The notes beneath the pieces were generated by a model, which made no database searches, was not told the DNA's origin, and worked only from the letters and a program-made list of their open reading frames with translations. Shown piece by piece: positions 37,523 through 54,144 of a stretch of 60,079 bases of DNA. How positions within the stretch are numbered: position 1 is the first letter of the stretch; every line of letters begins with the position of its first letter. The position numbers and the translations under genes are program-made. The DNA comes from Iphinoe sp. HA4291-MV1 (GTDB taxonomy: Bacteria; Cyanobacteriota; Cyanobacteriia; Cyanobacteriales; Nostocaceae), in assembly GCA_019359415.1 (NCBI GenBank), contig JAHHHH010000041.1, forward strand, positions 1 through 60,079, read 5' to 3'.

Positions 37523-38725
37523 CTAACTTGATAGTACCTTTGGACAATCATTTGTAATTTCCACTAGCTTACCGCCTTTTGTCAGTCTCAGTCGTCGCCC
37601 ACGCCACTCGAACGTATCACTAACAAAGCTGTAGCACCACAATAAGAAGCTGATGAGATCGCGTAAAAGCACCAGCCACAAAAACTTTCTGGCGACCGGA
37701 TCTTTGAGGCTCCTAACTCCAACGACCCATGCCATGATTAACCTCGTACTCCAGATGAAACCAGCAACTACCCAACCGAAAATCGACCCGACTGTTGCTA
37801 TCAAGAATAATAAGCTTATTGCTGTGCCATGGGTAAAAATTAGCCCTAGGTAGCCCCAAGGTCGAGAAACTCGCGTGCAGCAATTCCAGCGTGTCTGACG
37901 ATGGATTAAATCAATAAAGCTTTCTGTGGCGATCGCATGGTCAATAACATACTCAGAAAGTACTACTTTGTAGCCTGCTTGGGTACTTAGGTAGCCAAGT
38001 TGGAAATCGTCTGCCAGATAATCGGCAATTGCCAGAAATCCTCCTATTGCTTCCAGGACACTTTTGCGGATTGCAATGGTTGGACCGAGGGCAAAGTTCA
38101 TTCCCTCCAGCGACCTTGCGACTAAAATGTTAGTATGGTACTGAGTGGATATCCCGATGCCTTCCAGGATTGCCACCCACCCTCGAACCTGCGGACGGTA
38201 CAAACAGGTGACAACACCCACGGCTGGATCGCGCATCGGCTGGATGATTCGCCTCAAATAATCTAGTCCAACGCGAACATCACTATCTGCAAGCAGCAGG
38301 AGCGAATACTTGGCTTCAGCTTCAGCGTTTGCTAGATTACTAACTTTCAAATTAGTGCCAATTGTGCGATCGCTGATTACGAGACGAATATCAATTTCTG
38401 GGAAGTCGTCGATGATTTTCTTGACAACTTGCACACTAGGGTCATGTTCATCACGCACACCGAAAATGATTTGGTACTCCGGGTAGTCTTGCTGACAGAA
38501 TGAGGCAAAGTTTTCGTAGGTATCGATATCGAGACCACAAATCGGCTTGAGGATAGTAATGGGCGGGTGGAAGTCGGGATCGATCTGTGTCTGATGGGAA
38601 AAGAACTTAATTGCCGCATAGATCCCATACCAGTAATACCAAATTGCCGACAAACACAGCATTAGGAGCAGGAAGTAGAGTCCAGTGCCTATCAAAGCAA
38701 AATAATCTGAAGCAATCTGAAGCAT
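37523..38725 (-). CDS. hpnI: HpnI-like glycosyltransferase (ceramide-glucosyltransferase type), copy 1
   Basis: 400 residues. An N-terminal membrane helix (about 8-35), a GT21/GT2 catalytic domain (ITILKPICGLDIDTYENFAS; LLLADSDVRVGLDYL; DDFQLGYLSTQAGYKVVLSE; the (Q/R)xxRW motif RQTRWNCCTRVSRP) and C-terminal membrane helices. HpnI adds N-acetylglucosamine to bacteriohopanetetrol, and HpnK and HpnJ then convert it to the cyclitol ether; both lie nearby. A second copy is adjacent. Confidence 0.88.
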   Translation of the reverse strand: MLQIASDYFALIGTGLYFLLLMLCLSAIWYYWYGIYAAIKFFSHQTQIDPDFHPPITILKPICGLDIDTYENFASFCQQDYPEYQIIFGVRDEHDPSVQVVKKIIDDFPEIDIRLVISDRTIGTNLKVSNLANAEAEAKYSLLLLADSDVRVGLDYLRRIIQPMRDPAVGVVTCLYRPQVRGWVAILEGIGISTQYHTNILVARSLEGMNFALGPTIAIRKSVLEAIGGFLAIADYLADDFQLGYLSTQAGYKVVLSEYVIDHAIATESFIDLIHRQTRWNCCTRVSRPWGYLGLIFTHGTAISLLFLIATVGSIFGWVVAGFIWSTRLIMAWVVGVRSLKDPVARKFLWLVLLRDLISFLLWCYSFVSDTFEWRGRRLRLTKGGKLVEITNDCPKVLSS

Positions 38726-38750
38726 TATGTTGATACAGATAGACCATCAG

Positions 38751-40064
38751 CTAACTTGATAAAACCTTTGCAAAATCGTCTGTCATTTCCACTAGCTCAC
38801 CCCCTTTTGTCAGTCTCAGTCGTCGTCCACGCCATTCAATTGTGCTGCCAAATAAGCCGCAGCACCAGATGACAAAGCCGATGAGATCGCGTAGAGGAAC
38901 GATCCAGAAAAACTTCTGAACACATGAGTCTTGAAGATAGCTAATCCCAATAACCCAGCCCATAAGCAGTCGCATTATCCAAGTGATAACTAGGACAGCA
39001 CAGCCTATTGTTGATCCACCCGTAGCAATCAGCAGTAGTAGGCTAGTGACAGTACCATAAGTAAAAATCAGTCCTAGGTAACTCCAAGGACGGGAAACTC
39101 GTATACAACGTGCCCAGCGAATTTGACGTTGGATGGAATCTGTTATGGTGCTAGATGCCAGTACGTGTTCAACTATGTAGTCGGAAAGCACAACCTTGTA
39201 GCCTGCTTGTGCGCTTAAGTAGCCGAGTTGAAAGTCGTCTGCAAGATAATCTGCGATCGCTCTAAATCCTCCAATTTTATCAAGCACTTGTTTGCGGATG
39301 ACAACAGTTGAACCAAAGGCGAACTTAATGCCTTCTATTTGATTGCTGATTAAGACACCTGCATTGAAAAAATCGGTAGCAATTCCAATAGCTTCTAAGG
39401 TGGTTACCCATCCTTTGGCTACAGAACGATATAAACAAGTGACAACACCAACACTAGAATTTTGTAGTGGTTGGATGACTCTTTGCAGATAGTCTGTCTC
39501 AACTCGGATATCGCTATCAGCAATCAGCAAGATTTCGTGTTTCGCTTTGGTGACGGCGTTAGCCAAATTGCTCACTTTGGGGTTTGTTCCGATTGTGTCT
39601 TCACAGACCACTAACTGAATATCTAATTCTGGAAAGTCGTGAATGATTTGCTTGACGACTGTTATACCACAGTCCAATGGGTCGCGGACGCTAAAAATAA
39701 TTTGATAGTTTGGGTACTGCTGTCGGCAGAAGGAAGTCAAGTTTTTGTATGCTTCGCCGTCGTCCAGCCCACAAATTGGCTTTAAAATAGTGACGGGCGG
39801 ATGGAAATTTAACTCCACAGAATGGGGATGTTGGAAGGTGGCGATAGCGAAGCGCGCCCTACGCCCCAACCAGGCTCCGCCTGGTTGCCCCGAAGCGGAG
39901 CTTCGGGGAGAGGGTTTCTCAAAGAAACCCTCTGGGCGTATATGGGCGATCGCTGCATATATTCCGTAGCTGTAAAACAAGACAGCCGATATACAGAGGA
40001 TAAACAGTAGGAAATTAATGAGAGTCAGACTAAAAGAAGTTGTTGAAAGAATAGAAATATCCAT
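38751..40064 (-). CDS. HpnI-like glycosyltransferase, copy 2, with repeat insertion
   Basis: 437 residues. Same layout as copy 1 (FHPPVTILKPICGLDDGEAY; LLIADSDIRVETDYL; DDFQLGYLSAQAGYKVVLSD; RQIRWARCIRVSRPW). It is 37 residues longer because residues about 41-80, between YGIYAAIA and FHPPVTIL, are encoded by a palindromic repeat. The inserted part is next to the membrane helix, outside the catalytic core. It is 25 bases upstream of copy 1, same strand; a tandem duplication. Confidence 0.87.
   Translation of the reverse strand: MDISILSTTSFSLTLINFLLFILCISAVLFYSYGIYAAIAHIRPEGFFEKPSPRSSASGQPGGAWLGRRARFAIATFQHPHSVELNFHPPVTILKPICGLDDGEAYKNLTSFCRQQYPNYQIIFSVRDPLDCGITVVKQIIHDFPELDIQLVVCEDTIGTNPKVSNLANAVTKAKHEILLIADSDIRVETDYLQRVIQPLQNSSVGVVTCLYRSVAKGWVTTLEAIGIATDFFNAGVLISNQIEGIKFAFGSTVVIRKQVLDKIGGFRAIADYLADDFQLGYLSAQAGYKVVLSDYIVEHVLASSTITDSIQRQIRWARCIRVSRPWSYLGLIFTYGTVTSLLLLIATGGSTIGCAVLVITWIMRLLMGWVIGISYLQDSCVQKFFWIVPLRDLIGFVIWCCGLFGSTIEWRGRRLRLTKGGELVEMTDDFAKVLSS
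39839..39946. repeat. Triple-hairpin repeat inserted in frame in hpnI copy 2
   Basis: Three consecutive inverted repeats: AACCAGG/CCTGGTT (39868-39886), CCCCGAAG/CTTCGGGG (39888-39908) and AGAGGGTTTC/GAAACCCTCT (39909-39933). All lie within the coding region. Confidence 0.85.
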
Positions 40065-40257
40065 TGATTGTCTGGGGTGCGATCAGTGCGCACGTGTTAT
40101 AAATGACTGCACATCAGCTTATGACCTTTGTATGCAAAAGATATAACTTTGAAATGAAAAAATTACGACTTTTAGGTGATACTATAACAAGTTTTTATAT
40201 GTAATTTTTATCCTCTTTCGTAGGAGTGGGCACTCAATTGGTTTGCCATCTACTGTC

Positions 40258-41886
40258 ATGAATCTGATTTACTTTCTTCTGGGTTCTTCTTGGCGAATGG
40301 TGGCGATCGCTGTTGTCACCGGCTTTTTAAGTGGCGGTAGCAGCGCTAGCCTCATAGCTCTGATTAGCACTGCAGCAAGTCGCAGTGCTAGTGAACGCCT
40401 CACGATTATAGCTTGGAGTTTTGTCGGGCTAGCATTAGTAGCACTTATCACTAGTGTTATTTCTCAGGTTATGCTGATTCGCTTATCTCAGAATGCTGTA
40501 TTCCAATTACGGATGCGCCTGAGTCGCCAAATTCTCTCTTCCGAGTTGAGTCATTTGGAACAGCTAGGAAGTCCCCGACTCTTAGCAACCCTCACGGAAG
40601 ATGTACAGACAGTTGCTAATGCTGTCCATTTAATTCCTTATTTATGTATTGATATTGCTATTGTAGCAGGTTGCTTGCTGTATATTACTTGGCTATCATG
40701 GTTAGTACTTCTGATGGTTATAGGACTTGCAGTAGTCGCAATTGGCAGTTCTCAATGGCTGTTAATAAGAGGAGAGAGATTCCTCGCTCTTGCCCGAGAC
40801 GATCAAGATATACTATTTAAGCATTTCCGTACCATTACTGAAGGAGTAAAGGAACTTAAGCTACACTACAGGCGACGTCAAGTCTTCCTTTCTAAGAACC
40901 TGCAATCAACAGCTGCTGAGTTCAGCCGTCACAGCATTCAGGGTTTGACTCTGTTTACATCAACAACAAGTTGGGGAAGACTTGTATTTTTTTTCGCGAT
41001 CGGTTTTGTCCTGTTTGCACTTCCCCATCTACTCACCATCAGTTCCCAAACTCTCTCAGGCTACATCTTGACATTTACATTCTTGATCATGCCAATGAAC
41101 AATATTGTGGAGAAACTCCCCCACATAAGCAGAGCTAGCATTGCGTTGCAAAAAATAGAGTCGTTGGGTTTATCTTTGGCAAACCAAGCTGAACAATCAA
41201 CGGTTCCACCCGAAAGTAAGTCTTCCTGGCAGTGTTTACAACTTGTGAATGTTACTCATACTTATCGCACAGATCAAGAAGACAGCAGCTTTATTCTCGG
41301 TCCTATCGACCTAACATTTTATCCTGAACAACTGGTGTTTATCGTTGGAGGAAATGGTAGCGGTAAATCCACTCTAGCCAAACTCATTACAGGACTCTAC
41401 ATTCCTGAAGTTGGAGAAATTTTGTTTGATGGAGAGTTGATTACCGAACAAAATCGAGAGTGGTATCGCCAACATTTCTCTGTGGTGTTTTCTGACTTTT
41501 ATTTATTTGAAGAACTTTTGGGGTTAGAGAATATTAACTTGGATACTCAGGCTCAAGAATACTTGAAACTACTCCAACTCGACCATAAAGTAAAAGTTGA
41601 AAATGGTAAACTTTCCACCACAAATCTTTCACAAGGACAGCGCAAAAGACTAGCTTTGCTGACAGCATACTTAGAAGATAGACCAATTTATCTATTTGAT
41701 GAATGGGCAGCTGACCAAGACCCAGTATTTAAAAAAATCTTCTATACTCAACTTTTACCAAAACTGAGAGATAAAGGCAAAACCGTACTGGCAATCACTC
41801 ATGATGACCGCTATTTTCATGTAGCAGACCGGATAATAAAACTGGACTACGGTAAAGTGGAGTTTGACAAGAAAACCAGTATTTGA
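40258..41886 (+). CDS. ABC transporter permease/ATPase, cyclic-peptide exporter type
   Basis: 542 residues from ATG 40258 (MNLIYFLLGSSWRMVAIAVV); a TTG at 40243 is an alternative. Six membrane helices (residues ~1-290) fused to an ATPase (Walker A IVGGNGSGKSTLAKLI; signature NLSQGQRKRLALL; Walker B PIYLFDEWAADQDP; His switch AITHDDRYF). This is the SyrD/PvdE-like family (TIGR01194) often linked to peptide natural products. It is the only plus-strand gene between the hpnI pair and hpnK. Confidence 0.9.
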   Translation: MNLIYFLLGSSWRMVAIAVVTGFLSGGSSASLIALISTAASRSASERLTIIAWSFVGLALVALITSVISQVMLIRLSQNAVFQLRMRLSRQILSSELSHLEQLGSPRLLATLTEDVQTVANAVHLIPYLCIDIAIVAGCLLYITWLSWLVLLMVIGLAVVAIGSSQWLLIRGERFLALARDDQDILFKHFRTITEGVKELKLHYRRRQVFLSKNLQSTAAEFSRHSIQGLTLFTSTTSWGRLVFFFAIGFVLFALPHLLTISSQTLSGYILTFTFLIMPMNNIVEKLPHISRASIALQKIESLGLSLANQAEQSTVPPESKSSWQCLQLVNVTHTYRTDQEDSSFILGPIDLTFYPEQLVFIVGGNGSGKSTLAKLITGLYIPEVGEILFDGELITEQNREWYRQHFSVVFSDFYLFEELLGLENINLDTQAQEYLKLLQLDHKVKVENGKLSTTNLSQGQRKRLALLTAYLEDRPIYLFDEWAADQDPVFKKIFYTQLLPKLRDKGKTVLAITHDDRYFHVADRIIKLDYGKVEFDKKTSI

Positions 41887-41903
41887 TTCCTTCTACCAAG
41901 TCA

Positions 41904-42020
41904 GGAAATGATGTAGTCATCCTTTTATGCGGTGGTGACAAAAGCAGTCAAGACAGAGATATTCAAAAAGCAAAGGAATATTGGCAGGCATACCAGGAGG
42001 AACAGAAAGATGAGCCATAG
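41904..42020 (+). pseudogene. HigB/RelE-type toxin, C-terminal remnant
   Basis: The frame reads GNDVVILLCGGDKSSQDRDI followed by QKAKEYWQAYQEE, which matches the last 40 residues of HigB-like toxins. The first half of the toxin, including most active-site residues, is missing. Its stop overlaps the antitoxin start, the normal arrangement for such a pair. Confidence 0.75.
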
Positions 42021-42328
42021 ATTAAGACATCATGATGAATTGGTTATTGATGAATTGCGGAATCCAGAGATGGCGAAATCCTACCTGGAAGTTGCCTTAG
42101 AAGAATATGAGCAAGACGGAGATTTACCGTTCTTCCTTCAGGCACTACGTAACGTAGTAGAAGCGCAGGGAGGGATAGCAAAACTTGCTTCAAACAGGCT
42201 TAAATCAGCAGAACCTTTATCAAGTCTTGTCTGAGAACGGAAACCCTGAATTGCGTACTATCAGTCTGATTTTACATACGCTTGGCTACCGCCTGAGTCT
42301 AGCCAGAGCAGACAGTTCGCCAGAGTAA
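42010..42328 (+). pseudogene. HigA-type antitoxin with frameshift
   Basis: From ATG 42010 (MSHRLRHHDELVIDELRNPE) the frame fits the antidote proteins paired with HigB-like toxins, up to GGIAKLASN. It then goes out of frame; the continuation GLNQQNLYQVLSENGNPELR and the end SLILHTLGYRLSLARAD are in another frame, stopping at 42328. About 2 bases are missing near 42190-42194 (AACAGG for an expected AACACAGG). The helix-turn-helix is thus broken. Confidence 0.8.
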
Positions 42329-42391
42329 ATAGAAATCCAAAATGAGCTACGGATACGCTGAGCGCAAGGGACGCGAACGGAGGAGCAACGC

Positions 42392-43297
42392 TTACCAGAA
42401 CTTCGGTGATTTTGAATGCGTGAATGTTTGAGAAGCCAGAGGAGCTTTGTCAAAATTTGTCAATTTAAAGCCCTTAACAGCCAGCATTTCACCCACTCGT
42501 CCACTCAATAAAGCAGCGAGTTCAGCTTCACCTGCTCCTGGTGAACCATTCAGCGGTTCGCCAGCTATAGCCACTGCTGGATGACAATAAATCTCCACTA
42601 AGTTTGCCTCAATTTGGGGTATGAGACCAAGCAAGTATTCCTCAGTCATAGAGCCAGTTTGCAGCAATCCGTAAACGCGCTCCGCAAAGCCAATGCCCTT
42701 TGATTTCAGCAAGCCCTCACCGTACCGGCGCAGTTTACCAAACACACCCGCCCAAACCAGTTTAGTTATTATCTCACGACGGTCAAGCCGCAGGCTCATT
42801 CCCAGTTCCTCATGAGGAAGACGGATGACTCGAATATCAAACTCATCCGCTAGTTCAACTAGGATACGCAGTACTACCGGATGGACGTGCATGTGCAAAT
42901 GCCCATCTACATGAGAAAGGCGTAACCCAGAGGAGCGAAATTTTTCTAATTGAGCGCGGATTTCCTGTCTCAGTTCCTCATGAGTTGCCTGAATGAACTG
43001 GTAGCGCAACCCGCTTCTCGGCGGACTGTATGGAAAGTTTCCTGCTGAGTCAACTAAGTGGGGAATTTGTGAGGATGGTAGCACAGATCGACCGCACACC
43101 AGAACTAAGTGCAGACCAACTGCTAAGGTAGAATGAGCACGTGCCAAATCAACAGCTTCATCAAATGCCTCACCCGTAACCATTAAGCTGGTACTCGTCA
43201 GTACTCCTTCTTTGTGCGCTTTGATAATTGCTTGATTGACGCCATGTGAGAAACCGAAGTCATCACCATTGATAATGGCGAATTTCTGAGCCTGCAT
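42392..43297 (-). CDS. hpnK: HpnK, hopanoid deacetylase (ChbG/YdjC family)
   Basis: 301 residues from ATG 43297 (MQAQKFAIINGDDFGFSHGV); 43 codons upstream are not of the family. The metal site is INGDDFGFSHG plus the His residues in LSHVDGHLHMHVHP. It should deacetylate GlcNAc-bacteriohopanetetrol in the hpnI-hpnK-hpnJ pathway. It comes between hpnI and hpnJ, which supports the assignment. The C-terminal end (FTHSKSPKFW) may be altered by a repeat just after the gene. Confidence 0.85.
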   Translation of the reverse strand: MQAQKFAIINGDDFGFSHGVNQAIIKAHKEGVLTSTSLMVTGEAFDEAVDLARAHSTLAVGLHLVLVCGRSVLPSSQIPHLVDSAGNFPYSPPRSGLRYQFIQATHEELRQEIRAQLEKFRSSGLRLSHVDGHLHMHVHPVVLRILVELADEFDIRVIRLPHEELGMSLRLDRREIITKLVWAGVFGKLRRYGEGLLKSKGIGFAERVYGLLQTGSMTEEYLLGLIPQIEANLVEIYCHPAVAIAGEPLNGSPGAGEAELAALLSGRVGEMLAVKGFKLTNFDKAPLASQTFTHSKSPKFW

Positions 43298-43307
43298 AAG
43301 TTTTGGT

Positions 43308-43613
43308 TTATGATTCGGAAAACTGGGCTGTCTGATTAGACTGACGCCGAGGTATGAGTTTGAGAATGCGTAGAGCAGTTGCTGCAAGTGTAGGTAGGAA
43401 TCGCGGCTGGAGGAGCTGTTGGTCAAAGACGCTCATGCGTCTGGCGTTTTCTTCAAGGCAAAAGGCTTCTCTCCAAAAGGGAATGCCGTGTAGGCGTTCT
43501 AGAGCGACGCTATCAAGAGAAGGCCAAGGGAGTTGCTCAGGTTCAAACTCTAGGTGACTTTCGATGAAGCTGCGGCAAAACAAATTTTTATGGTCTTCGC
43601 TTCCAAGTTTCAT
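43308..43613 (-). CDS. Conserved-looking hypothetical protein in hopanoid locus
   Basis: 101 residues starting MKLGSEDHKNLFCRSFIESH, with LPWPSLDSVALERLHGIPFW in the middle. The start resembles the opening of cyanobacterial ferritin-like (diiron) proteins, but the metal-binding body is absent and the second half (FLPTLAATALRILKLIPRRQ) is a basic helix. It sits 29 bases after hpnJ and just before hpnK, in the same unit. It could be a real small protein or a remnant fused to something else. Confidence 0.5.
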   Translation of the reverse strand: MKLGSEDHKNLFCRSFIESHLEFEPEQLPWPSLDSVALERLHGIPFWREAFCLEENARRMSVFDQQLLQPRFLPTLAATALRILKLIPRRQSNQTAQFSES

Positions 43614-43641
43614 AATTTCTTTGTTAGTAGTTAGTTATTGA

Positions 43642-45102
43642 CTACCCGTTCACAACTGATTGCTCTTTAGCAGCCGCTTGTGTGTGACGCTCTTTCAAGT
43701 AAGAGAAAAATTCGCGTCCCTCACGCAGGCGACGCACTAGCATCTGGGGATTGGTCAGCATTTCACCGACAATCGGAATGATGGCTTTGGGTCGAAAGTA
43801 GAAGCGACGATACATCTGCTCAACTGCATCCTCAATCTGGGCGCTGGTGAGGTTGGGATACTGTAGTGTAGACATTTGAATGCCAGATGAGGCGACTAGG
43901 GAATTATCGCTAAACCAACTGTTCGTCTGAGCTTGTCGATAAAGTTCGGTTCCTGGATAAGGAGCGGCGATGGAAACTTGGATGGTATGGGGATTCATAT
44001 CGCAAGCAAAGCGAATTGTTTCCTCAATTGTCTGGCGGGTTTCGTTTGGCAAGCCGATGATGAATGTACCGTGTACGGTAATGCCAAGTTTATGGCAGTT
44101 CTCCATAAACTTTCGCGCTACCTCTAATTTAATGCCTTTCTTAATTCCGTCCAGAATTTGCTGGTTGCCTGATTCAAATCCTACCAGTAACAGGCGCAAG
44201 CCGTTGTCACGCAGTTGCTTGAGAGTATCGTAGTCTAAATTAGCACGGGCGTTGCAGCTCCAAGTCAGCTTGAGTCGTTTCATGTGTTCGCTGATGGCGA
44301 TCGCTCGCTGCTTATCAATTGTGAAGGTGTCATCATCGAACATATATTCCTGCACTTTGTCACCAAAGATGGCTTTGGCTTCTTCCATTTCTCGCCCAAC
44401 CGCTTGTGGACTTTTGGTACGATACTGGTGACCGCCTATTGTTTGAGGCCAGAGGCAGAAGGTGCATTTAGCAGGGCAACCTCGTCCAGTGTAAAATGAA
44501 ACATAAGGATGCAGTAAATATCCGATAAAATATTTCGTAATATCTAAGTCACGTCCATAAACTGGTAGCACGCTGGGCATGGCATCCCAATCGTGGATTA
44601 AGTCACGTTCTGCATTGTGATGTAAGTTACCTTGAGCATCTCGGTAGCTGAGTCCCTTAATCTGATTCCAAGGTTTACCTTCTGCCAATTCCTGACAGGT
44701 GTAGTCAAATTCGTTGCGACACACAAAGTCTATCACTGGGTTCTCGCGCAGTGTTTCCTCTGGTAAAACAGCAACATGCGCCCCTACAAAACCAATCTGT
44801 ACATTAGGGTTTTGTTCCTTCATTGCAAGAGCACACGTTACATCATTTGCAAGCGAGGGTGTGCTGGTGTGCATGATAATCAATTCGTAATCTTTGGCAA
44901 TTTTCAGCACATCTTCCACAGTCTGATTGTGTGGAGGAGCATCTACTAGTTTGCTTCCAGGGACGAGTGCGGCGGGTTGCGCTAGCCATGTAGGATACCA
45001 GAAGGAAGTAATTTCGCGCTTGGCTTGGTATCGGGAACCTGCACCACCGTCAAACCCATCAAAGGAAGGAGGATTCAGAAAAAGAGTTTTTTTCACTAAC
45101 AT
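43642..45102 (-). CDS. hpnJ: HpnJ, hopanoid radical SAM protein
   Basis: 486 residues. N-terminal B12-binding-like domain (VDAPPHNQTVEDVLKIAKDY; QIGFVGAHVAVLPEETLREN) and a radical SAM core with CxxxCxxC in TGRGCPAKCTFCLWP. The opening TLFLNPPSFDGFDGGAGSRY is HpnJ-like. HpnJ contracts the sugar ring to the cyclitol in bacteriohopanetetrol cyclitol ether. Upstream neighbour genes and spacing fit an hpnJ-x-hpnK operon. Confidence 0.9.
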   Translation of the reverse strand: MLVKKTLFLNPPSFDGFDGGAGSRYQAKREITSFWYPTWLAQPAALVPGSKLVDAPPHNQTVEDVLKIAKDYELIIMHTSTPSLANDVTCALAMKEQNPNVQIGFVGAHVAVLPEETLRENPVIDFVCRNEFDYTCQELAEGKPWNQIKGLSYRDAQGNLHHNAERDLIHDWDAMPSVLPVYGRDLDITKYFIGYLLHPYVSFYTGRGCPAKCTFCLWPQTIGGHQYRTKSPQAVGREMEEAKAIFGDKVQEYMFDDDTFTIDKQRAIAISEHMKRLKLTWSCNARANLDYDTLKQLRDNGLRLLLVGFESGNQQILDGIKKGIKLEVARKFMENCHKLGITVHGTFIIGLPNETRQTIEETIRFACDMNPHTIQVSIAAPYPGTELYRQAQTNSWFSDNSLVASSGIQMSTLQYPNLTSAQIEDAVEQMYRRFYFRPKAIIPIVGEMLTNPQMLVRRLREGREFFSYLKERHTQAAAKEQSVVNG

Positions 45103-45456
45103 TTCTCCTTTTGTTACTTTTTAAACGCAGAGGAGCGCAAAGGAATACGCAAAGGGACGCAGAGTCTCGCCAAATTTAATCCGCTACGAATTCATGAAAT
45201 GCTGTACTAAGTTTTACATAACCTGTAGCAATCTTGTTGTCAGAAAAGTTGAGTACTCAAAATATGACGTTCATCTAAAAAAGTGGTGAGTAAGTGCGAG
45301 GAGTAATATTGAGTAAAACCTGCGATCGCCCTTTGGGCACTGCGCTGTGCGCAATCGCTTAGTCAGATCTAAATAAACATAGTTGATGGTTTGTTGAAGT
45401 ATGGGTGGATATGCCGTGGGACTTTCCCATAAGGGAAAAGCTTGACAGCTGGTATT
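45103..45456. other. Intergenic region with repeats
   Basis: Contains GC-rich repeat (ACGCAGAGGAGCGCAAAGG, about 45125) and the palindrome at 45322-45358 (GCGATCGCCC ... GCGCAATCGC). No gene recognised. The hpnJ promoter should lie around 45110-45200. Confidence 0.45.
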
Positions 45457-46278
45457 TTACCTGCTTGTGTTAGTCACCTGGTCAATGAGTGCAAGGACAT
45501 CACTGCGGCTAAGTTTACTTTTGCCATTGGCAAGAGCATCAAGGGTGCCGTAAGCTAAGGTTAAGGGAATTTGGCAAAAGTCCAAAGCCGGACCAGCACC
45601 AAGAGCGCTAGTGTATGCATCTGCCAGTGTCAGATTGCGACGAGCATAATGATGCACATCTTCTGCACTCCAACCCTCTGGGAAGAAGTCCACCCCACGC
45701 ACCAAGTCTTCAGCGTGGTTCCGGATGATATTCACGGCTTGTAAACCACGACCAAACCCAATTGCATGGATACGGTTTGTCTGCGTCCCATCGTACCAAG
45801 CCCATAAATCTGAGAGCATCAAGCCAACTGCACCAGCAACTCCAAACGTGTAACGATCCAAATCAGATTCTGTACGAATTATCCAATTGGTTTCTGCCCA
45901 ATAAGCCATTCTATCTGCCATTGCTGCAGTCGCATCCCAAATCCGAGGTGCAATGGTTGCAGGCGCAAGTATTGCCCATTCTCGAATCCGCAGGGAAACT
46001 TCTGGTAGTAAGTGTTCATGTGACTTCAATTCCTGATGGAAAGCATCAACAGCAAAGCCATCACTCCCTGCTTGTAATGTCAAGCTAATTGTTCGTAACA
46101 GCTTTGCTTTGGTGAAGTTATCTAATTCTGAATGGTCTTCAATTTCATCAATGGCTCGCAAACACAAGTACGCTGATGCTACCGCCTCTTGCAAGCCAAG
46201 TGGTAACTGAATTATTGGGATGTAAAAAGTCCGACTCGTTTCTTTGAGGATGTTTAAGGCATCGCCATACAAGTCCAT
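45457..46278 (-). CDS. Squalene/phytoene synthase-family protein
   Basis: 273 residues from ATG 46278 (MDLYGDALNILKETSRTFYI). The first Asp-rich motif is altered to LRAIDEIEDHSE, and the second reads AVNIIRNHAEDLVRGVDFFP. The latter resembles the squalene-synthase type more than phytoene synthase. It should join two prenyl diphosphates head to head, but the changed first motif and small size leave the product open. It lies in the hopanoid locus, which suggests squalene or a related precursor. Confidence 0.85.
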   Translation of the reverse strand: MDLYGDALNILKETSRTFYIPIIQLPLGLQEAVASAYLCLRAIDEIEDHSELDNFTKAKLLRTISLTLQAGSDGFAVDAFHQELKSHEHLLPEVSLRIREWAILAPATIAPRIWDATAAMADRMAYWAETNWIIRTESDLDRYTFGVAGAVGLMLSDLWAWYDGTQTNRIHAIGFGRGLQAVNIIRNHAEDLVRGVDFFPEGWSAEDVHHYARRNLTLADAYTSALGAGPALDFCQIPLTLAYGTLDALANGKSKLSRSDVLALIDQVTNTSR

Positions 46279-46303
46279 AAGATTGCAACTCCATTGGATA
46301 TCA

Positions 46304-46522
46304 TTAACTTTGCTTAATATTGTTGGTGAAAAAGTCACCAATTAAATCAAAAAGTTGGGATTGCTGAAATTGGTGTCCTTTACTCAACTGCAATGGCATA
46401 AATTCACAGTCGGTTACCAAACTTAATCCAATCCAACAGTCACCAACTTCTGATTCAAAAAGCAGATTTTGATTATCTATTTTCTTCAGAAACAAATTAA
46501 ACTTATTAGCCAAGAATGACAT
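46304..46522 (-). CDS. Hypothetical short protein
   Basis: 72 residues (MSFLANKFNLFLKKIDNQNL; DCWIGLSLVTDCEFMPLQLS). No family recognised. It is between the P450 and the squalene-synthase-like gene, same strand, and ends 25 bases before the latter. Could be a remnant. Confidence 0.35.
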   Translation of the reverse strand: MSFLANKFNLFLKKIDNQNLLFESEVGDCWIGLSLVTDCEFMPLQLSKGHQFQQSQLFDLIGDFFTNNIKQS

Positions 46523-46832
46523 TGGTCTCCACCTGCTGGACTTGTTAGTTATGGATCATATATGCTTCTTGGCTCTTATCCCTGACTTTCTTGATTACCG
46601 TGTTAATTGATACTAAAATTATACGGCTAATCTTGTGCAAGCTACTCTCCTCTGTGTGCGATATCGCAAAACGTTATGACCTGCATGAGTGTCAATTGAC
46701 GACGTTAATAGGTCAAAGTTCCCGGTGAACGCTTAACTTATGACACAAAACACCAAAAGTGTTGAGTCTTTTGATGAGCGCGATCGCTTTTATAAGTCTT
46801 GTTGTTTTGTATTCTTAAGGAAGAGAAATAAT
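46523..46832. other. Intergenic region, nothing recognised
   Basis: One HIP1-like site (GCGCGATCGC, about 46780). No other structure of note. Confidence 0.35.
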
Positions 46833-46880
46833 ATGGTAGCAGGCGAGACATCCACTTCACAAGGAAAGATAATTGTATAA
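46833..46880 (+). pseudogene. 15-codon leader, possible N-terminus of a lost flavoprotein
   Basis: ATG preceded by AAGGAAGAG opens MVAGETSTSQGKIIV then stops. GKIIV is where an FAD-binding fold (GKIIVIGAG) would begin, so it may be the start of a lost desaturase. Very short; weak. Confidence 0.2.
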
Positions 46881-46919
46881 GGTGAGCGCTGGATGATCAT
46901 TTGCATTAAATACCAAACC

Positions 46920-48317
46920 TTAACGTCTCAACTCAACAAGGCTTGGTTGCGAAACTAAAGGGCTTTTACGGTTGATTTTAATGTAAAAGCCTCCTTTTAC
47001 TCTCAATGGTATTGGGCTGTCTTTTGAGAAGAATGCTGTTTTCAACGTGTAAGTAGGTGGATCTAATTGTGGATGAACAGCGTATAAAAGAGTAGCCACA
47101 GTCAGCATAAGCTGTACTTCTGCTAACCTTGCTCCCGCACAAGTATGTGCTCCGAAGCCGAATGGCGCAAATGCTCCCGGCTGCTTATGTTCTTGACGCA
47201 GTGAGCCGTAGCGCTCCACGTCAAAGGTGTGGGGTTCTGGGTAAAATTCTGGTAAAAAATGCGATATTCCTAAAGCAATATATATAATTTGTCCACTCTC
47301 AACTTTATACTCTGCAAAATCAAATGGATGTTTGACATAGCGTTGCACCAGAAATCCTATTGGATACATGCGTAGGGTTTCCATGACTGCCCAACGCAAT
47401 ATTTTCATCTTTTTAATATCTTCAATATTGGGAATGCCGTTAGCAAAAGCTGTATTCACCTCTGCCATCACTTGCTCATGTATTTCTGGATTTTTGAGAA
47501 TCTCATACAGCAAAAATGGCACAGTTCTAGCAGATGTATCAAGTGCGGAAAAAAGAGGCAATGCCATAAAGGAAAATATGTCGTATTCTGTGAGGGGTTG
47601 ACCATCCGCATGAGTTATTGTAAGTAAGGTATCCAGCATATCTGGATTGTCAGTGACTGGGATGGCTTTTCGTCGTTCATTAATGATTTCTTGTATAAAA
47701 GCTAACGTTCGTTTTTTCGCTGTTAAATATTTTGATGTATGAAGTTCTGGGTTTAGCCCTTGCCGACTCTGAAAACCTTTTGCTACTATAACTTTTACTA
47801 TTGTACTAAACGATGTAATAATATCTTCACAATAGTCGCCTGGTATTGTGCTTAAGAAAGCTAATGCCAATTGCGTACAAATGGGCTTTTCCATCAAATG
47901 AGTTAATTCCACACGCTGACCTAATTGCCAGTCTTTCGAGAAGTCCAAGGTAGCTTGGATTATTGGCTTGACATATTGTGCTATTTTATCAGGAGACAGA
48001 AATTGCTCAGTTATCTTACGACAGCGACGGTGAGGCTCACCTTCCAACGCTACTAGAAGGCTCATCCCTAATTCTTTGACCAAGTCGCCGTAAACTTCAT
48101 AAGTCGTTAAGCAATCTATCATCTCCTTTTGAGAAACAAACATATTTGCTTCCGGTCCCCCTAATATCGTCATGACTCTTCCCGGAACACGAACTCTATA
48201 AAGGGGACCAAGCTTCTGGTAAGTTTTTACAAAAAACTGATAGGGATTTTGTATGAGAGGAACAAGATTTCCAATGAGTGGTAATCCTTTAGCTACTGGA
48301 ATTTCTTTGGTTGTCAT
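46920..48317 (-). CDS. Cytochrome P450
   Basis: 465 residues, soluble (no N-terminal membrane helix). The heme-Cys loop is APFGFGAHTCAGARLAEVQL, the ExxR motif is VMETLRMYP, and the start is MTTKEIPVAKGLPLIGNLVP. The I helix reads LFSALDTSARTVPF; the usual (A/G)Gx(D/E)T motif is ALDT, with Ala-Leu in place of the glycine, which may affect oxygen handling. A natural-product monooxygenase is likely; the substrate may be the terpenoid made by neighbours. Its first 58 codons and leader are duplicated at 50192-50424. Confidence 0.93.
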   Translation of the reverse strand: MTTKEIPVAKGLPLIGNLVPLIQNPYQFFVKTYQKLGPLYRVRVPGRVMTILGGPEANMFVSQKEMIDCLTTYEVYGDLVKELGMSLLVALEGEPHRRCRKITEQFLSPDKIAQYVKPIIQATLDFSKDWQLGQRVELTHLMEKPICTQLALAFLSTIPGDYCEDIITSFSTIVKVIVAKGFQSRQGLNPELHTSKYLTAKKRTLAFIQEIINERRKAIPVTDNPDMLDTLLTITHADGQPLTEYDIFSFMALPLFSALDTSARTVPFLLYEILKNPEIHEQVMAEVNTAFANGIPNIEDIKKMKILRWAVMETLRMYPIGFLVQRYVKHPFDFAEYKVESGQIIYIALGISHFLPEFYPEPHTFDVERYGSLRQEHKQPGAFAPFGFGAHTCAGARLAEVQLMLTVATLLYAVHPQLDPPTYTLKTAFFSKDSPIPLRVKGGFYIKINRKSPLVSQPSLVELRR

Positions 48318-48376
48318 AGATTTTCTCTAAAAGCAAAAATTCAGAGTTTTTATACCTGTCTGTAGTATCTTACCTC
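48144..48376. repeat. 233-bp direct repeat, copy 1 (P450 5' end)
   Basis: Covers the first 58 codons of the P450 gene and its 59-base leader. It matches 50192-50424 without gaps and with fewer than a dozen differences by eye. The repeats are 2,048 bases apart, in the same orientation. Confidence 0.95.
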
Positions 48377-48570
48377 TTAAAATGCACATTTTATAACCCT
48401 TATACAATAAAGGTTTTACCAAACAGCATTGACGTCACAACAGAACACACTTGTGCTCACTACACCCAAAGAACTGATGGTGGATACGCTATTATAAATG
48501 GTGTAAAAACGAGTGCCTTCATCATTGGTCACTGGCAAGCACGCAACCTAACCATTTAGCAGAGAGTAGT

Positions 48571-49893
48571 ATGATGGTGTTAGTCACTGATACTCCAACA
48601 CTTGAACATCCCTATCACCCTGTGGAGATTCGCTTTTTCAACTGGGCAGGAAGTCTATTAAGACGAAGTGGTTTACCATTAGCAAACCTTTCAGTGGAGT
48701 CGCTTTTGTCTACTGCCCAAAACCTTACGGGATTGTCTGATTGGGGCAATGAAAGTTTTCAAGTTTCTTTACGGATACTGCTCGAATCTTTGGAGACAGA
48801 AGCCAATTTAAACTTTTTTGGTCGATACGCTTTTCGGCAGAAATGTATCCGCCTGTTAGTAAATAGGCTGCGTATTCAAGACGATCTCAAACGCTATCCA
48901 GAAATCTGGCAAGTGCCTATTCGGCGACCACTGTTCATTACTGCATTGTATCGCAGCGGCACCACGTTACTTCATAACCTGTTGTCTTGTGATCCCGCAA
49001 GTCGATCGCTATGTTTTTGGGAAGCAGACAGTCCCTCACCCCCACCCAATCTCCAAACCCGTGAAAGCGATCCGAGAATTAAGAAGGCCCAGAAAGTCTT
49101 GAAGCTATATAACTACCTTGCACCAAGAGCTGTCTCGGTACACGCCATGATGAATTCAACAGGACCAGAAGAATGCATCTTGCTGTTTGACTATGAGTTT
49201 TTGAGTACTAACTTCGAATCGCTGGCGAATGTGCCAAGTTACTCTAAGTGGTTGAAGGCTCATGACATGGTTGCCCCATATCGGTACTATCGACAGCTGC
49301 TACAACTTTTGGGGTGGCGTTGTCCTGGCGACCACTGGGTACTGAAAGCACCCGCGCACCTATTTAGTCTGGATACACTGATGACCGTTTTCCCGGATGC
49401 TTGCATTATTCAAACACATCGCGATCCGCTTAGGGCGTTGCCTTCGTTATGTAGTATGAATGCCACTAATCGGGGAATGTTTACTGACAGGGTGGATCTT
49501 GCAGGTGTGGGTGAGTTTTGGCTCAATCGGTTAGCAGATGGAGTTGAGCGTGGGATGCAAGCGCGTGAGTTTGCCAATCCAGCCCAATTTTATGATGTGA
49601 ACTACAACAGCCTTGTACAAAACCCGATTGGTACTGTACGTCAGATTTATGAATATTTTGGTTATGATTTCCATCCTCCTATGGAAGAAAACATGAAAAG
49701 ATGGATAAGTGAAAATCCTCAGCACAAACACGGTGTACATCAATATTCTTTAGAACAGTTTGGCTTAGAGCCAGTAGTGGTAAACCAAAGATTTGCCAAA
49801 TATCGCCAACGCTTCAAAATTTCCACAGAGTTAGGTGAACGCGATTGCACGGAGCGCAGTGCCAAAGGCAATCGCCAGATGAGTGGAACCTAG
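48571..49893 (+). CDS. Sulfotransferase-family protein
   Basis: 440 residues. The PAPS 5'-phosphosulfate loop is LFITALYRSGTTLLHNLLSC and the 3'-phosphate site is IIQTHRDPLRALPSLCSMNA; HWVLKAPAHLFSLDTL precedes it. It should transfer sulfate from PAPS to a hydroxyl group of a small molecule or lipid. The last 18 codons (ERDCTERSAKGNRQMSGT) come from a palindromic repeat at 49841-49875, so the natural end has been replaced. Divergent from the P450; both could serve one pathway. Confidence 0.88.
   Translation: MMVLVTDTPTLEHPYHPVEIRFFNWAGSLLRRSGLPLANLSVESLLSTAQNLTGLSDWGNESFQVSLRILLESLETEANLNFFGRYAFRQKCIRLLVNRLRIQDDLKRYPEIWQVPIRRPLFITALYRSGTTLLHNLLSCDPASRSLCFWEADSPSPPPNLQTRESDPRIKKAQKVLKLYNYLAPRAVSVHAMMNSTGPEECILLFDYEFLSTNFESLANVPSYSKWLKAHDMVAPYRYYRQLLQLLGWRCPGDHWVLKAPAHLFSLDTLMTVFPDACIIQTHRDPLRALPSLCSMNATNRGMFTDRVDLAGVGEFWLNRLADGVERGMQAREFANPAQFYDVNYNSLVQNPIGTVRQIYEYFGYDFHPPMEENMKRWISENPQHKHGVHQYSLEQFGLEPVVVNQRFAKYRQRFKISTELGERDCTERSAKGNRQMSGT
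49841..49875. repeat. 35-bp GCGATTGC...GCAATCGC palindrome at sulfotransferase 3' end
   Basis: GCGATTGCAC ... GGCAATCGC, with core GGAGCGCAGTGCCAAAGG. It encodes the C-terminus of the sulfotransferase and separates it from the HpnA remnant. Confidence 0.75.
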
Positions 49894-50889: not shown

Positions 50890-50949
50890 ATGCACCGTTA
50901 TTGGTGCAAAATTCAGTTTATAAATCCAACAATCGGCAAGGAAAAAATT

Positions 50950-51258
50950 ATGATTTCTGAAACGTTACAAAAGAATTCTGAGGAAGAGTTAAAGCAGCTA
51001 CAAGAAGAGATTAAGCAGAGAATGATGGAAGCTGTGAATAACTCTAAATTAATCGAATTATTCCAGCAATACGGTTTAACAGGAGACGGGCTGGTAAAAT
51101 TTCAGTGCATACTCGATATACCTAAAATTCAAGCGAGTGATACTGTTGTGGGCCAGCAATTTAAAGAAAGTTTACGAGCCATTCAAGAGAAGGAGATAAT
51201 TGTACCAGCATGTGAGTGCTGGTGCGAAAATCCACCAGGATTTTGTTGTGCTTGCTAG
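50950..51258 (+). CDS. Small protein with six-cysteine tail; candidate RiPP precursor
   Basis: 102 residues from ATG 50950, which follows an AAGGAAAAAATT ribosome site; 20 upstream codons (to 50890) are unlikely to be translated. The first 80 residues are acidic and helical with Gln/Glu/Lys runs (EELKQLQEEIKQRMMEAVNN; LIELFQQYGLTGDGLVKFQ). The last 16 are ACECWCENPPGFCCAC: six Cys as CxCxC and CCxC around PPG. Leader-like body plus Cys-rich end fits a modified peptide precursor, though the family is unknown and no specific maturase is adjacent. A metal-binding protein is the alternative. Confidence 0.6.
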   Translation: MISETLQKNSEEELKQLQEEIKQRMMEAVNNSKLIELFQQYGLTGDGLVKFQCILDIPKIQASDTVVGQQFKESLRAIQEKEIIVPACECWCENPPGFCCAC

Positions 51259-51433: not shown

Positions 51434-51792
51434 CCTGATGAAGCTTTGGTAAAGAGCAAAACGCAAATTACCAAAGTCGATGTAAGTAGTCGTGTAAAAT
51501 TAAATATACAATGTCATTGCGAATGGAGCGGAGCGGAATGAAGCATAAGTCCTATGCCTTCGGCACGCCAAGGGTGAACGGATACGCTAAGTCCCAAGGG
51601 GACACGCTACGCGAACGCTGCATTTCATTCCGTATGCCCTATACGCAGAGCGCACGCCAAGGGCGAACGGGCACGCTGGACGAACGCAATGACATAAATA
51701 TTTTTGCGTACGTACTTAGTCTATTGAATATAGCTGCAATGTCACCGTTGTTCAGTAATAGCTACTTCATGTGGAGGGGTGTAATATTTGGG
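51434..51792. other. Repeat-rich region before haemagglutinin gene
   Basis: Contains a GC-rich repeat cluster (about 51515-51690: ATGCCTTCGGCACGCCAAGG; GGACACGCTACGCGAACGC; AGCGCACGCCAAGGGCGAAC). The frame of the haemagglutinin gene is open through it from 51511, but the encoded residues look like repeat translation, not protein. Confidence 0.5.
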
Positions 51793-54144
51793 ATGAGTAC
51801 TCGTAACTGTTGGTTTACGGGGATAGGAGTTGCAATAGGCGGTGCAATAACTTTCTGTGCAAACTGTGCTATTGCCCAAATCACCCCGGATGCGACTCTA
51901 CCTAATAATTCTCGTGTAACAACACAGGACAACATCAGAACAATCGAAGGTGGAACCCGCGCAGGTAGCAATCTGTTCCACAGTTTTGAGCAATTTTCTG
52001 TACCTACTGGGACTACAGCTTACTTTCAAAATGCTCTTGATATTCAGAACATTATTAGCCGGGTAACAGGTAAGTCTATCTCTAATATTGATGGCATCCT
52101 TAGAGCTAACGGACGGTCCAACCTGTTTCTGATAAATCCCAACGGAATTCTTTTTGGTCCCAATGCTTCTTTGAACATTGGCGGTTCATTTATAGCAAGT
52201 ACGGCAAGCAGTCTTAACTTTGCCGATGGTACTAAGTTTAGTGCCACAGACCCCCAAACAGCACCCCTACTGACAGTCAGCGTTCCTATTGGCTTACAAT
52301 TTGGATCAACTGCAGCACCCATCCATAATCAATCCCAAGCAAGTCCCGATGGTGCAACTAATATCTTTGGTTCCCCCATTGGTCTACAGGTGCAACCAGG
52401 AAAAACTTTGGCATTTGTGGGCGGTGATGTGACGCTGGATGGTGGAAATTTAACAGCGGCAAGGGGAAGAATTGAGCTAGGAAGTGTCGCTAGCAATAGT
52501 CTGGTCAGTCTGAACCGAATGAACCAAGATTGGGTCTTAGGGTATGAGGGTGTCCAGAATTTCCAGAACATTCAACTAATCCAGCGCACTGTTGATAGTT
52601 CAGTGATTCGATCTATAGTAGACACCAGTAGCAAAGATGGCAGTGGCAATATCCAAGTGCGGGGTCAGTCCGTGGAATTAATCGGCAATCTTGTGACATT
52701 AACAACTCAAACTACAGGTGTCAGAGATGGCGGAGACTTAATGATTACCGCCAAGAAATTACTTGTTAAGGATGGTGCACAAGTATTAACTGCTACTTTA
52801 GGCGAAGGTCGCGGGGGAAATTTGACCGTAAATGCCTCCGATACCGTGGATGTAATTGGTAATTTTATCACCTCAAATAACATTTATCCTAGTGTATTGG
52901 GTAGTACAACTTTTGCTTCTGGAAAAGCCGGTGACATAACAATCAATACTGGGAGATTGCGTATTCAAGGTGGAGCACGGGTATCAGCAGCATCTGGTGC
53001 AAGACAACAAAACTCAAAATTCATACCAGCTACAGGATCTGGAGGAAATTTGACCGTTAATGCCTCTGAGTCCGTAGAGATTATTGGAACTTCAGCAAAT
53101 GGTTCTGCGGTCAGCAGCTTATCTACTTTGACTCGAGGTTCCGCAGATGCTGGAAAATTGACAATCACCACAGGGCAATTGATTGTCCGGGACGGCGCTA
53201 CAGTAACCGTGAGCAGTCAAGCTCGAAAGAATGTAACCTACTTAGGAGACCCTAGAAACCTAGGAAAAGCAGGCGAACTCAATGTAACCGCTCGCTCCAT
53301 CCTGTTGGACAACAAAGGAAAACTCACATCTGAAACTGACACGGGTCAAGGCGGAAATATTACCCTACAAGTACGGGACTTATTACTACTACGCCGTAAT
53401 AGTCAAATTTCCACCAACGCAGGCAAGGTACAGGCTATTGGTGATGGCGGTAATATCACCATCAACGCTCCTAATGGCTTCATCGTCGCCAAACCACAAG
53501 AAAACAGCGACATCACCGCCAATGCTTTCACGGGTTCTGGCGGCAGAATTCAAATCAACGCTACTAGTCTTTTTGGCATAGCACCGCGTAGTCGAGATGA
53601 CTTGGCAAGACAACTGGGAACGAACGAGCCAACAAAACTAGATCCGCAAAATCTTCCCACAAACGATATCACCGCAATTTCTCAGACCAACCCGGTTTTA
53701 AACGGTGTGGTAAATATTAATACACCTGATGTTGATATCAACCGTGGATTAATTAACTTGCCAGTGGAACCAGAGGAACCGAAACTTGCACAGGGATGTG
53801 ATGCAAGTGTCGCGCAAAATCAAAGCGAATTCATCATCACCGGACGCGGTGGCATACCACCCAACCCTAGGGAATATCTTAGAAGCAACCCAGTGCAAGT
53901 GGATTGGGTGTCTTTGGGAGAGGATGCAAACCGTCCTTCGGATACTTCAAGCAGGGAGACGCAAGGGCGGAGAAGTAGAGGCAATTCACAAAATAAGAAA
54001 AATGTCAATCCTCCAGTGAATGAGATTGTAGAAGCACAGGGGTGGGTGGTGGATAGCAATGGTGATGTGATTTTGGTCGCTCAAGCACCCAATAAGACAC
54101 CTCATGGTTCCTGGTACAACCCAGCATCTTGCAAAGGTAGTTAG
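51793..54144 (+). CDS. Filamentous-haemagglutinin-type secreted beta-helix protein (TPS exoprotein)
   Basis: 783 residues from ATG 51793 (MSTRNCWFTGIGVAIGGAIT), with a signal peptide cleaved near CAIAQITPD. The TPS domain follows (AGSNLFHSFEQFSVPTGTTA; NLFLINPNGILFGPNASLNI), then a long beta-helix of repeats (GGNLTVNASD..., AGDITINTGRLRIQGGARVS). Such proteins are exported by an outer-membrane TpsB partner, often as adhesins; no TpsB gene is nearby. The C-terminus (QGWVVDSNGDVILVAQAPNK) is typical of the cyanobacterial group. It starts later than the longest open frame, which begins in repeats. Confidence 0.9.
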   Translation: MSTRNCWFTGIGVAIGGAITFCANCAIAQITPDATLPNNSRVTTQDNIRTIEGGTRAGSNLFHSFEQFSVPTGTTAYFQNALDIQNIISRVTGKSISNIDGILRANGRSNLFLINPNGILFGPNASLNIGGSFIASTASSLNFADGTKFSATDPQTAPLLTVSVPIGLQFGSTAAPIHNQSQASPDGATNIFGSPIGLQVQPGKTLAFVGGDVTLDGGNLTAARGRIELGSVASNSLVSLNRMNQDWVLGYEGVQNFQNIQLIQRTVDSSVIRSIVDTSSKDGSGNIQVRGQSVELIGNLVTLTTQTTGVRDGGDLMITAKKLLVKDGAQVLTATLGEGRGGNLTVNASDTVDVIGNFITSNNIYPSVLGSTTFASGKAGDITINTGRLRIQGGARVSAASGARQQNSKFIPATGSGGNLTVNASESVEIIGTSANGSAVSSLSTLTRGSADAGKLTITTGQLIVRDGATVTVSSQARKNVTYLGDPRNLGKAGELNVTARSILLDNKGKLTSETDTGQGGNITLQVRDLLLLRRNSQISTNAGKVQAIGDGGNITINAPNGFIVAKPQENSDITANAFTGSGGRIQINATSLFGIAPRSRDDLARQLGTNEPTKLDPQNLPTNDITAISQTNPVLNGVVNINTPDVDINRGLINLPVEPEEPKLAQGCDASVAQNQSEFIITGRGGIPPNPREYLRSNPVQVDWVSLGEDANRPSDTSSRETQGRRSRGNSQNKKNVNPPVNEIVEAQGWVVDSNGDVILVAQAPNKTPHGSWYNPASCKGS

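Follow-up and report, generated by a model that had tools for sequence, protein, structure and literature searches.

The window analysed here, a stretch of 60,079 nucleotides from Iphinoe sp. HA4291-MV1, carries a gene for a small protein with a cysteine-rich tail, directly upstream of a gene for a two-partner-secretion (TPS) exoprotein. In alignments and trees of related loci, the class of the tail is congruent with one central segment of the exoprotein across several genera. The small Cys-tailed family was found to be undescribed, and we put at about even the chances that the two genes form a surface cassette in which a Cys-paired peptide would act outside the cytoplasm together with the matched exoprotein segment. 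The first-pass annotation of this DNA, made from the letters alone, took the small gene for a likely RiPP precursor and did not mention its recurrent partner, the TPS exoprotein directly downstream. The features to which we refer are listed below.

37523-49893: hopanoid-type cluster with two HpnI-like glycosyltransferases, a cyclic-peptide-exporter-type ABC gene, an HpnJ-like radical SAM gene and a squalene-synthase-like gene; then a P450 and a sulfotransferase
50938..50942, + strand: AAGGA, likely ribosome-binding site (sequence; the 79% identical relative supports the start)
50950..51258, + strand: gene for the small Cys-tailed protein, 102 aa (sequence, profile search, dN/dS)
50950..51207, + strand: body, residues 1-86, conserved, no export signal seen (comparison with relatives)
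51208..51255, + strand: hypervariable Cys-rich tail ACECWCENPPGFCCAC, residues 87-102 (comparison with relatives)
51793..54144, + strand: TPS exoprotein, TpsA-like (PF05860, E 3e-70; TIGR01901, 91.4 bits against a cut-off of 29.1); its ORF opens at 51511, and alignment with relatives places the likely start at 51793 (MSTRNCW..) or 51769
51874..52656, + strand: TPS secretion domain (domain match)
52696..53292, + strand: central passenger segment, approximately residues 396-594 of the 877-aa ORF, whose tree matches the tail classes (alignment, congruence tests)

The frame at 50950-51255 (+) translates as MISETLQ...ACECWCENPPGFCCAC, a protein of 102 residues with six Cys within the final 16, and AAGGA stands at 50938-50942; the first-pass description of the gene was therefore correct. 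The closest named relative, from Brasilonema sp. UFV-L1, is 79% identical, as is the relative at locus L137, which shares the start and the tail type. Between the latter and the window gene the synonymous rate exceeds the non-synonymous rate both in the body (0.18 versus 0.07) and in the tail (0.28 versus 0.21), and among eight pairs of relatives dN was lower than dS in seven of the eight bodies and all eight tails. Given this shared start and tail type, and dN below dS across pairs, we regard the ORF as a real protein gene and not a chance ORF. The gene itself is the one match to the small protein in its own genome (a 7.36 Mb draft).

A single-sequence search of 388 genomes of the order recovered the small-protein family in 24, and with a profile, members came up in 109 of the 218 genomes examined from the same taxonomic family, spread over 23 of 56 genera. 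Profile matches were present in 14 genomes of a phylum-wide sample of 386, of which 13 belong to the same taxonomic family and one is marginal. The marginal match (G418:C1:208678-208821, E 6.6e-4) lies outside the taxonomic family and inside an 873-codon frame. NCBIfam gave no match to the window protein (P0001) and its Pfam matches stayed below cut-off, while other family members gave scattered weak matches (best E 0.0022 in NCBIfam and 7.3e-5 for Pfam Tag1_C). A search of PDB sequences with the small protein returned nothing significant (best E 0.22), and plasmid and phage sequences held no match to P0001.

Tail diversity was examined in 120 small genes from the regions fetched first, a set collected with the family profile and hence not random; gene calls are ORF calls made in this analysis, on genomes that are mostly drafts. 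These genes have 115 distinct last-20 sequences, and Cys makes up 17.9% of the last 24 residues versus 0.9% of the body. The number of Cys in the last 24 residues ranges from 1 to 8, with widely variable spacing, and is even in 94 genes and odd in 26. Recurrent kinds of tail are CxPCPxxGxPxGCxC, CTCWSxxxxDFVxCPCH, CWCPCxGxCPCxxxC and CWCExxxxxCCxC, the last of which is the kind borne by the window gene, and an I-P-G-x-x-[IL]-like motif often stands just N-terminal to the first Cys. The profile search for homologues with variable Cys tails, which the first-pass annotation had advised, thus returned conserved bodies and hypervariable tails. Two outcomes had been named there as contrary to a RiPP reading, namely no homologues or an unchanged tail kept beside metal-homeostasis genes. 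Homologues exist, and no unchanged tail beside metal genes was seen among them; one kind, CxPCPxxGxPxGCxC (as CIPCP..GCNC), is almost invariant across many genomes of one genus, g7. Since some paralogues bear the tail on a different N-terminus, the tail behaves as a separable module. By eye, the body appears twice in tandem ahead of a single tail at L172 (4014-4445).

The association of the small gene with the exoprotein gene is regular. Of the 120 small genes, 89 are followed directly by a TPS exoprotein gene on the same strand, 20 by another small gene and nine by another ORF, the remaining two running off the stretch; for five of the nine (L054, L154, L181, L184 and L188) no TPS gene was found downstream. 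In a later set of 47 small genes, a TPS exoprotein gene follows within 2.5 kb in 42, and the remaining five lie at a stretch or contig edge. The genome of the window contains 22 TPS-domain matches, some of them cut by contig ends, and in the stretches around its other TPS genes, a few of which start too close to a contig end for the preceding DNA to be visible, the best small-gene match had E 0.07. POTRA_2 matches, as candidates for the cognate TpsB transporter, number seven in this genome, all on contigs other than that of the window, and the excess of TPS-domain over POTRA_2 matches implies that transporters may be shared. The paired exoproteins have a conserved C-terminus (IVEAQGW...C). The Cys in this C-terminus was considered as a partner for the tail and set aside as not specific, as it is also present in the 16 unpaired TPS proteins of the window's own genome whose C-terminus is visible. 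Two observations concern the exoprotein genes themselves: a repeat-like intergenic stretch at 51511-51700 lets the exoprotein ORF of the window open about 280 bases before the likely start near 51793, and at L151 (4036-6540) an ORF that by eye is transposase-like lies between exoprotein fragments behind the small gene.

We also examined the chromosomal setting in 29 loci, comprising 28 regions of 9 to 20 kb and the window. Twenty-five gene families recur in at least three of these loci, one being the cassette itself; 20 of the other 24 were scanned against Pfam with one representative each, and the remaining four were judged by eye. These neighbours are mostly housekeeping genes (fatty aldehyde decarbonylase, AccA, GTP cyclohydrolase, PRA isomerase, ribosomal S4 and others), and the shared neighbourhood also holds a MoaA-type radical SAM gene (8 loci) and an M50 peptidase gene (9 loci). 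In 37 loci with one or both flanks visible, the small genes and, except at L184, the exoprotein genes adjoin an ABC permease gene, located next to the fatty aldehyde decarbonylase gene, and a conserved 343-aa gene without a Pfam match. Both flanks were seen in genera g2, g7, g23, g250 and g259, and a single one in g12, g22 and g244. The tails found at the orthologous site vary between genomes, and at g7 sites with two units the second unit is the more variable. Judged by these flanks, different cassettes occupy one orthologous site across genera.

The matching of tail and exoprotein was analysed in 88 pairs, from which exoproteins shorter than 740 aa, scoring below 300 bits or lying 900 or more bases from the small gene had been excluded. 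Dereplication at 85% identity reduced these to 70 pairs, and 50 of the 70 were labelled with a tail class at a threshold of 0.45, single-member classes not being counted. When tail similarity, corrected for body similarity, was compared with exoprotein similarity in 40-column windows, r was 0.24-0.41 at columns 280-520 and 0.21-0.37 at columns 0-120; the values were 0.02-0.13 at columns 120-280 and 0.04-0.11 from column 520 onwards. Within columns 300-500, exoproteins with similar tails from different genera resembled each other more (0.53-0.56) than those with different tails from the same genus (0.45-0.52), the opposite of the pattern in columns 700-783 (0.41 versus 0.74). Comparing similar with dissimilar tails, both across genera, gave a difference of +0.085 in columns 640-700 (p 0.003 in a permutation that treats loci as exchangeable) and a slight rise in columns 500-640 and 700-783. 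For the six multi-genus tail classes, similarity was raised in the central segment in all six, in the frame in four and in the C-terminus in all six; the tail class of the window gene is uninformative alone because its rise is larger in the C-terminus than in the centre.

On the tree of columns 300-500 the number of tail-class changes was the minimum possible at each of four thresholds (6, 7, 9 and 10). Trees of columns 80-240, 0-80, 240-300 and 500-640 each required a number within 14-16, the tree of the C-terminus 17-19 and the tree of the small protein's own body 12-13, and shuffled labels averaged 27-31. In a scan with 80-column windows the fewest changes (8) fell at columns 360-440, against 10-11 in the other windows within 280-520 and 13-19 elsewhere. 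Because the central segment had been chosen on the same 70 loci, a further 32 regions were fetched as a held-out set. The 11 dereplicated held-out pairs gave r of 0.335 for columns 300-500 versus -0.009 for columns 80-240, 0.032 for columns 500-640 and 0.037 for the C-terminus, and all 39 held-out pairs gave 0.364 versus -0.001, -0.080 and 0.016, respectively. With the held-out loci added, the central tree required 9, 9, 11 and 11 changes, versus minima of 8, 9, 11 and 11. Columns 40-80, a candidate second matched segment in the first-seen signal, were dropped on weak held-out correlations (r 0.213 for the 39 pairs and 0.128 for the 11). The class of the tail tracks a distant segment better than it tracks its own body, which physical linkage alone does not predict but which would be expected of a partnership between the tail and the central passenger.

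This congruence could partly reflect old cassette lineages and gene conversion of the conserved parts, the main alternative where congruence is concerned. In its strict form, which is compatible with the other readings, tail and central segment would be rarely recombined remnants of old paralogous cassettes, the conserved parts having been homogenised by gene conversion, and no physical partnership would be involved. Such a history fits the finding that frame and C-terminus follow genus, the expectation that conserved DNA recombines more readily and the excess similarity for similar tails that is also present in C-terminal columns 640-700. It sits poorly, however, with a body whose congruence, although it adjoins the tail, falls below that of the distant central segment, and with a C-terminus that is about equally variable and is the least congruent region. 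We consider descent alone rather unlikely.

Evidence on where the tail acts comes from paralogues with export signals, which were called by a hydropathy rule and by eye. A hydrophobic N-terminus is present in 24 of the 120 small genes; 21 of these, from eight genera, were judged genuine and three look like artefacts of an upstream start. Eighteen of the 21 signals are of Sec type, 13 of these with a TPS-exoprotein profile score, and three have a twin-arginine motif (L161 and L162). Copies at L143 and L144 consist of nothing but a signal, a short linker and a tail. Of 18 signal-bearing copies that could be compared with an apparently signal-less neighbour, 11 have that neighbour's type of tail (p<0.05), two of the 11 involving a gene that is cut by the stretch edge and has its N-terminus outside the stretch. 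Body similarity is low for some of these tail-sharing copies (0.12 at L146, 0.04 at L176 and 0.26 at L158), and bodies are similar at L147, L157 and L167. Seven of the 21 signal copies had no significant tail match to a neighbour and three had no signal-less neighbour. As the tail is repeatedly found behind export signals, we infer that, most simply, it works outside the cytoplasm. The commonest form, the window gene included, lacks a signal peptide, which counts against a surface role. A five-gene array of small genes with differing Cys tails precedes one exoprotein gene at L146 (4018-8299); three of the five have signals and one is cut by the stretch edge.

In the two-gene surface cassette that we propose, the first gene would encode a carrier body and a hypervariable Cys-rich peptide module of 25-30 residues, and the second a TPS exoprotein whose central passenger segment would be matched to the tail of the first. 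The cysteines of the tail would pair as disulfides, and at the cell surface the tail may either dock on the partner's central segment or be displayed by it. Tails this variable and cassettes this polymorphic point to a possible function in recognising or antagonising other strains, phages or grazers. A more specific version is speculative and in our estimate rather unlikely: filamentous cyanobacteria might possess a polymorphic surface recognition system in which each allele, a disulfide-bonded peptide with a fitting exoprotein, is swapped at a fixed locus and serves discrimination of kin from non-kin or antagonism of competitors. In PMC10811720, one table of genes linked to phage resistance in a cyanobacterium includes a protein with a filamentous hemagglutinin N-terminal domain.

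By its N-terminal domain the exoprotein of the window is a member of the TPS exoproteins (FHA/HMW1 type; PF05860, TIGR01901), but the cassette differs from these in its hypervariable small Cys-tailed partner gene. We know of no TPS system with a partner gene of this kind, and a search of open-licence papers found no description of a small Cys-tailed gene paired with a TPS exoprotein. CDI and polymorphic toxin systems, as set out in parts of PMC3482391 and PMC3415462, likewise combine a surface exoprotein with a small partner gene and are polymorphic at one site. As for the immunity gene of CDI, no neighbour other than the small gene was constantly seen beside the exoprotein. Unlike in those systems, the C-terminus of the exoprotein is conserved here, the tail-matched variation lying in the small gene and the central segment, and no C-terminal toxin domain was detected in the window exoprotein by Pfam or NCBIfam.

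The RiPP reading, under which the body would be a leader for an unlinked maturase and the Cys tail a modified core, is in our view unlikely. The split proposed by the first-pass annotation held, in that relatives have a conserved body and a hypervariable Cys-rich tail, as do the leader and core of RiPP precursors (lanthipeptides, NHLP leaders, cyanobactins); arrays of paralogues and the IPGxx[IL]-like motif that frequently lies immediately ahead of the core also favour it. A linked maturase or dedicated exporter was not supported. Co-occurring maturases had been suggested as a check, and the 20 of 24 recurrent neighbour families that were scanned contained no known RiPP maturase. The cyclic-peptide-exporter-type ABC gene had been correctly placed at about 9 kb (40243-41886, ending 9.1 kb away and scoring over the TIGR01194 cut-off), but it belongs to another cluster, the hopanoid-type one.

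An unlinked maturase may nevertheless exist. A lanthionine RiPP was rejected, LanC-like proteins not being found in the window's own genome. An azole RiPP was rejected on the distribution of YcaO, which is present once and at full length in that genome: of eight draft genomes of the genus (89 to 99% complete), all carrying the small gene, five gave no YcaO match, among them the genome of the 79% identical relative. SPASM radical SAM matches were sub-threshold in the window's own genome and not found in G685, yet they exceeded the cut-off in six of the eight genomes, so that a SPASM enzyme stays a candidate. A resemblance to the NHLP leader was ruled out by hhalign (probability 0.3%), and with no NCBIfam match either, P0001 matched none of the known leader families compared. 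Unlike RiPP precursors, the family includes fusions of export signal and tail, from which the leader is absent, and a RiPP precursor would leave the matching to the exoprotein unexplained.

For function, the main alternative to the surface cassette is a dedicated chaperone or escort. The small protein would stay in the cytoplasm or periplasm, and its tail would keep the central passenger export-competent, hence the matching. This agrees with the signal-less form being commonest, with the strict pairing of the genes and with a tail matched to a passenger segment. We nevertheless hold it to be quite unlikely, given that the variability of the tail is above what a chaperone would lead one to expect and that the window's own genome has 22 TPS-domain matches and one small gene, so that most exoproteins need no such partner.

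Metallothioneins are characterized by a Cys-dense short segment, a likeness that extends to the tail of the small protein, and the dense CxC, CC and CCxC motifs could bind a metal. A metallothionein-like role is very unlikely, however, because the number of Cys (1-8 in the last 24 residues) and their spacing vary widely, the recurrent neighbours scanned include no metal-resistance or metal-transport family, and the matching to the exoprotein would be left unexplained. A Cys-codon attenuator, or regulatory upstream ORF, for the exoprotein gene is scarcely tenable: the Cys-rich end does lie upstream of that gene, but about 100 aa are under protein-level constraint, versions with an export signal exist, terminator-like sites are at chance level (1 found versus a shuffle mean of 1.0) and there is no Rfam match up to E 1.

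To our knowledge, the roles of TPS exoproteins in filamentous cyanobacteria are largely unknown. A regular partner gene names the segment of the exoprotein to test, and dozens of natural matched and mismatched pairs are at hand, so that specificity could be measured in vitro. These loci would also be a source of short Cys-rich peptides that searches for RiPP maturases would miss, provided that the peptide is displayed or released. In three short genes (L044, 3390-3677; L048, 8727-8981; L191, 2996-3478) a Cys tail is attached to an exoprotein-type N-terminus made up of the signal and a portion of the TPS domain.
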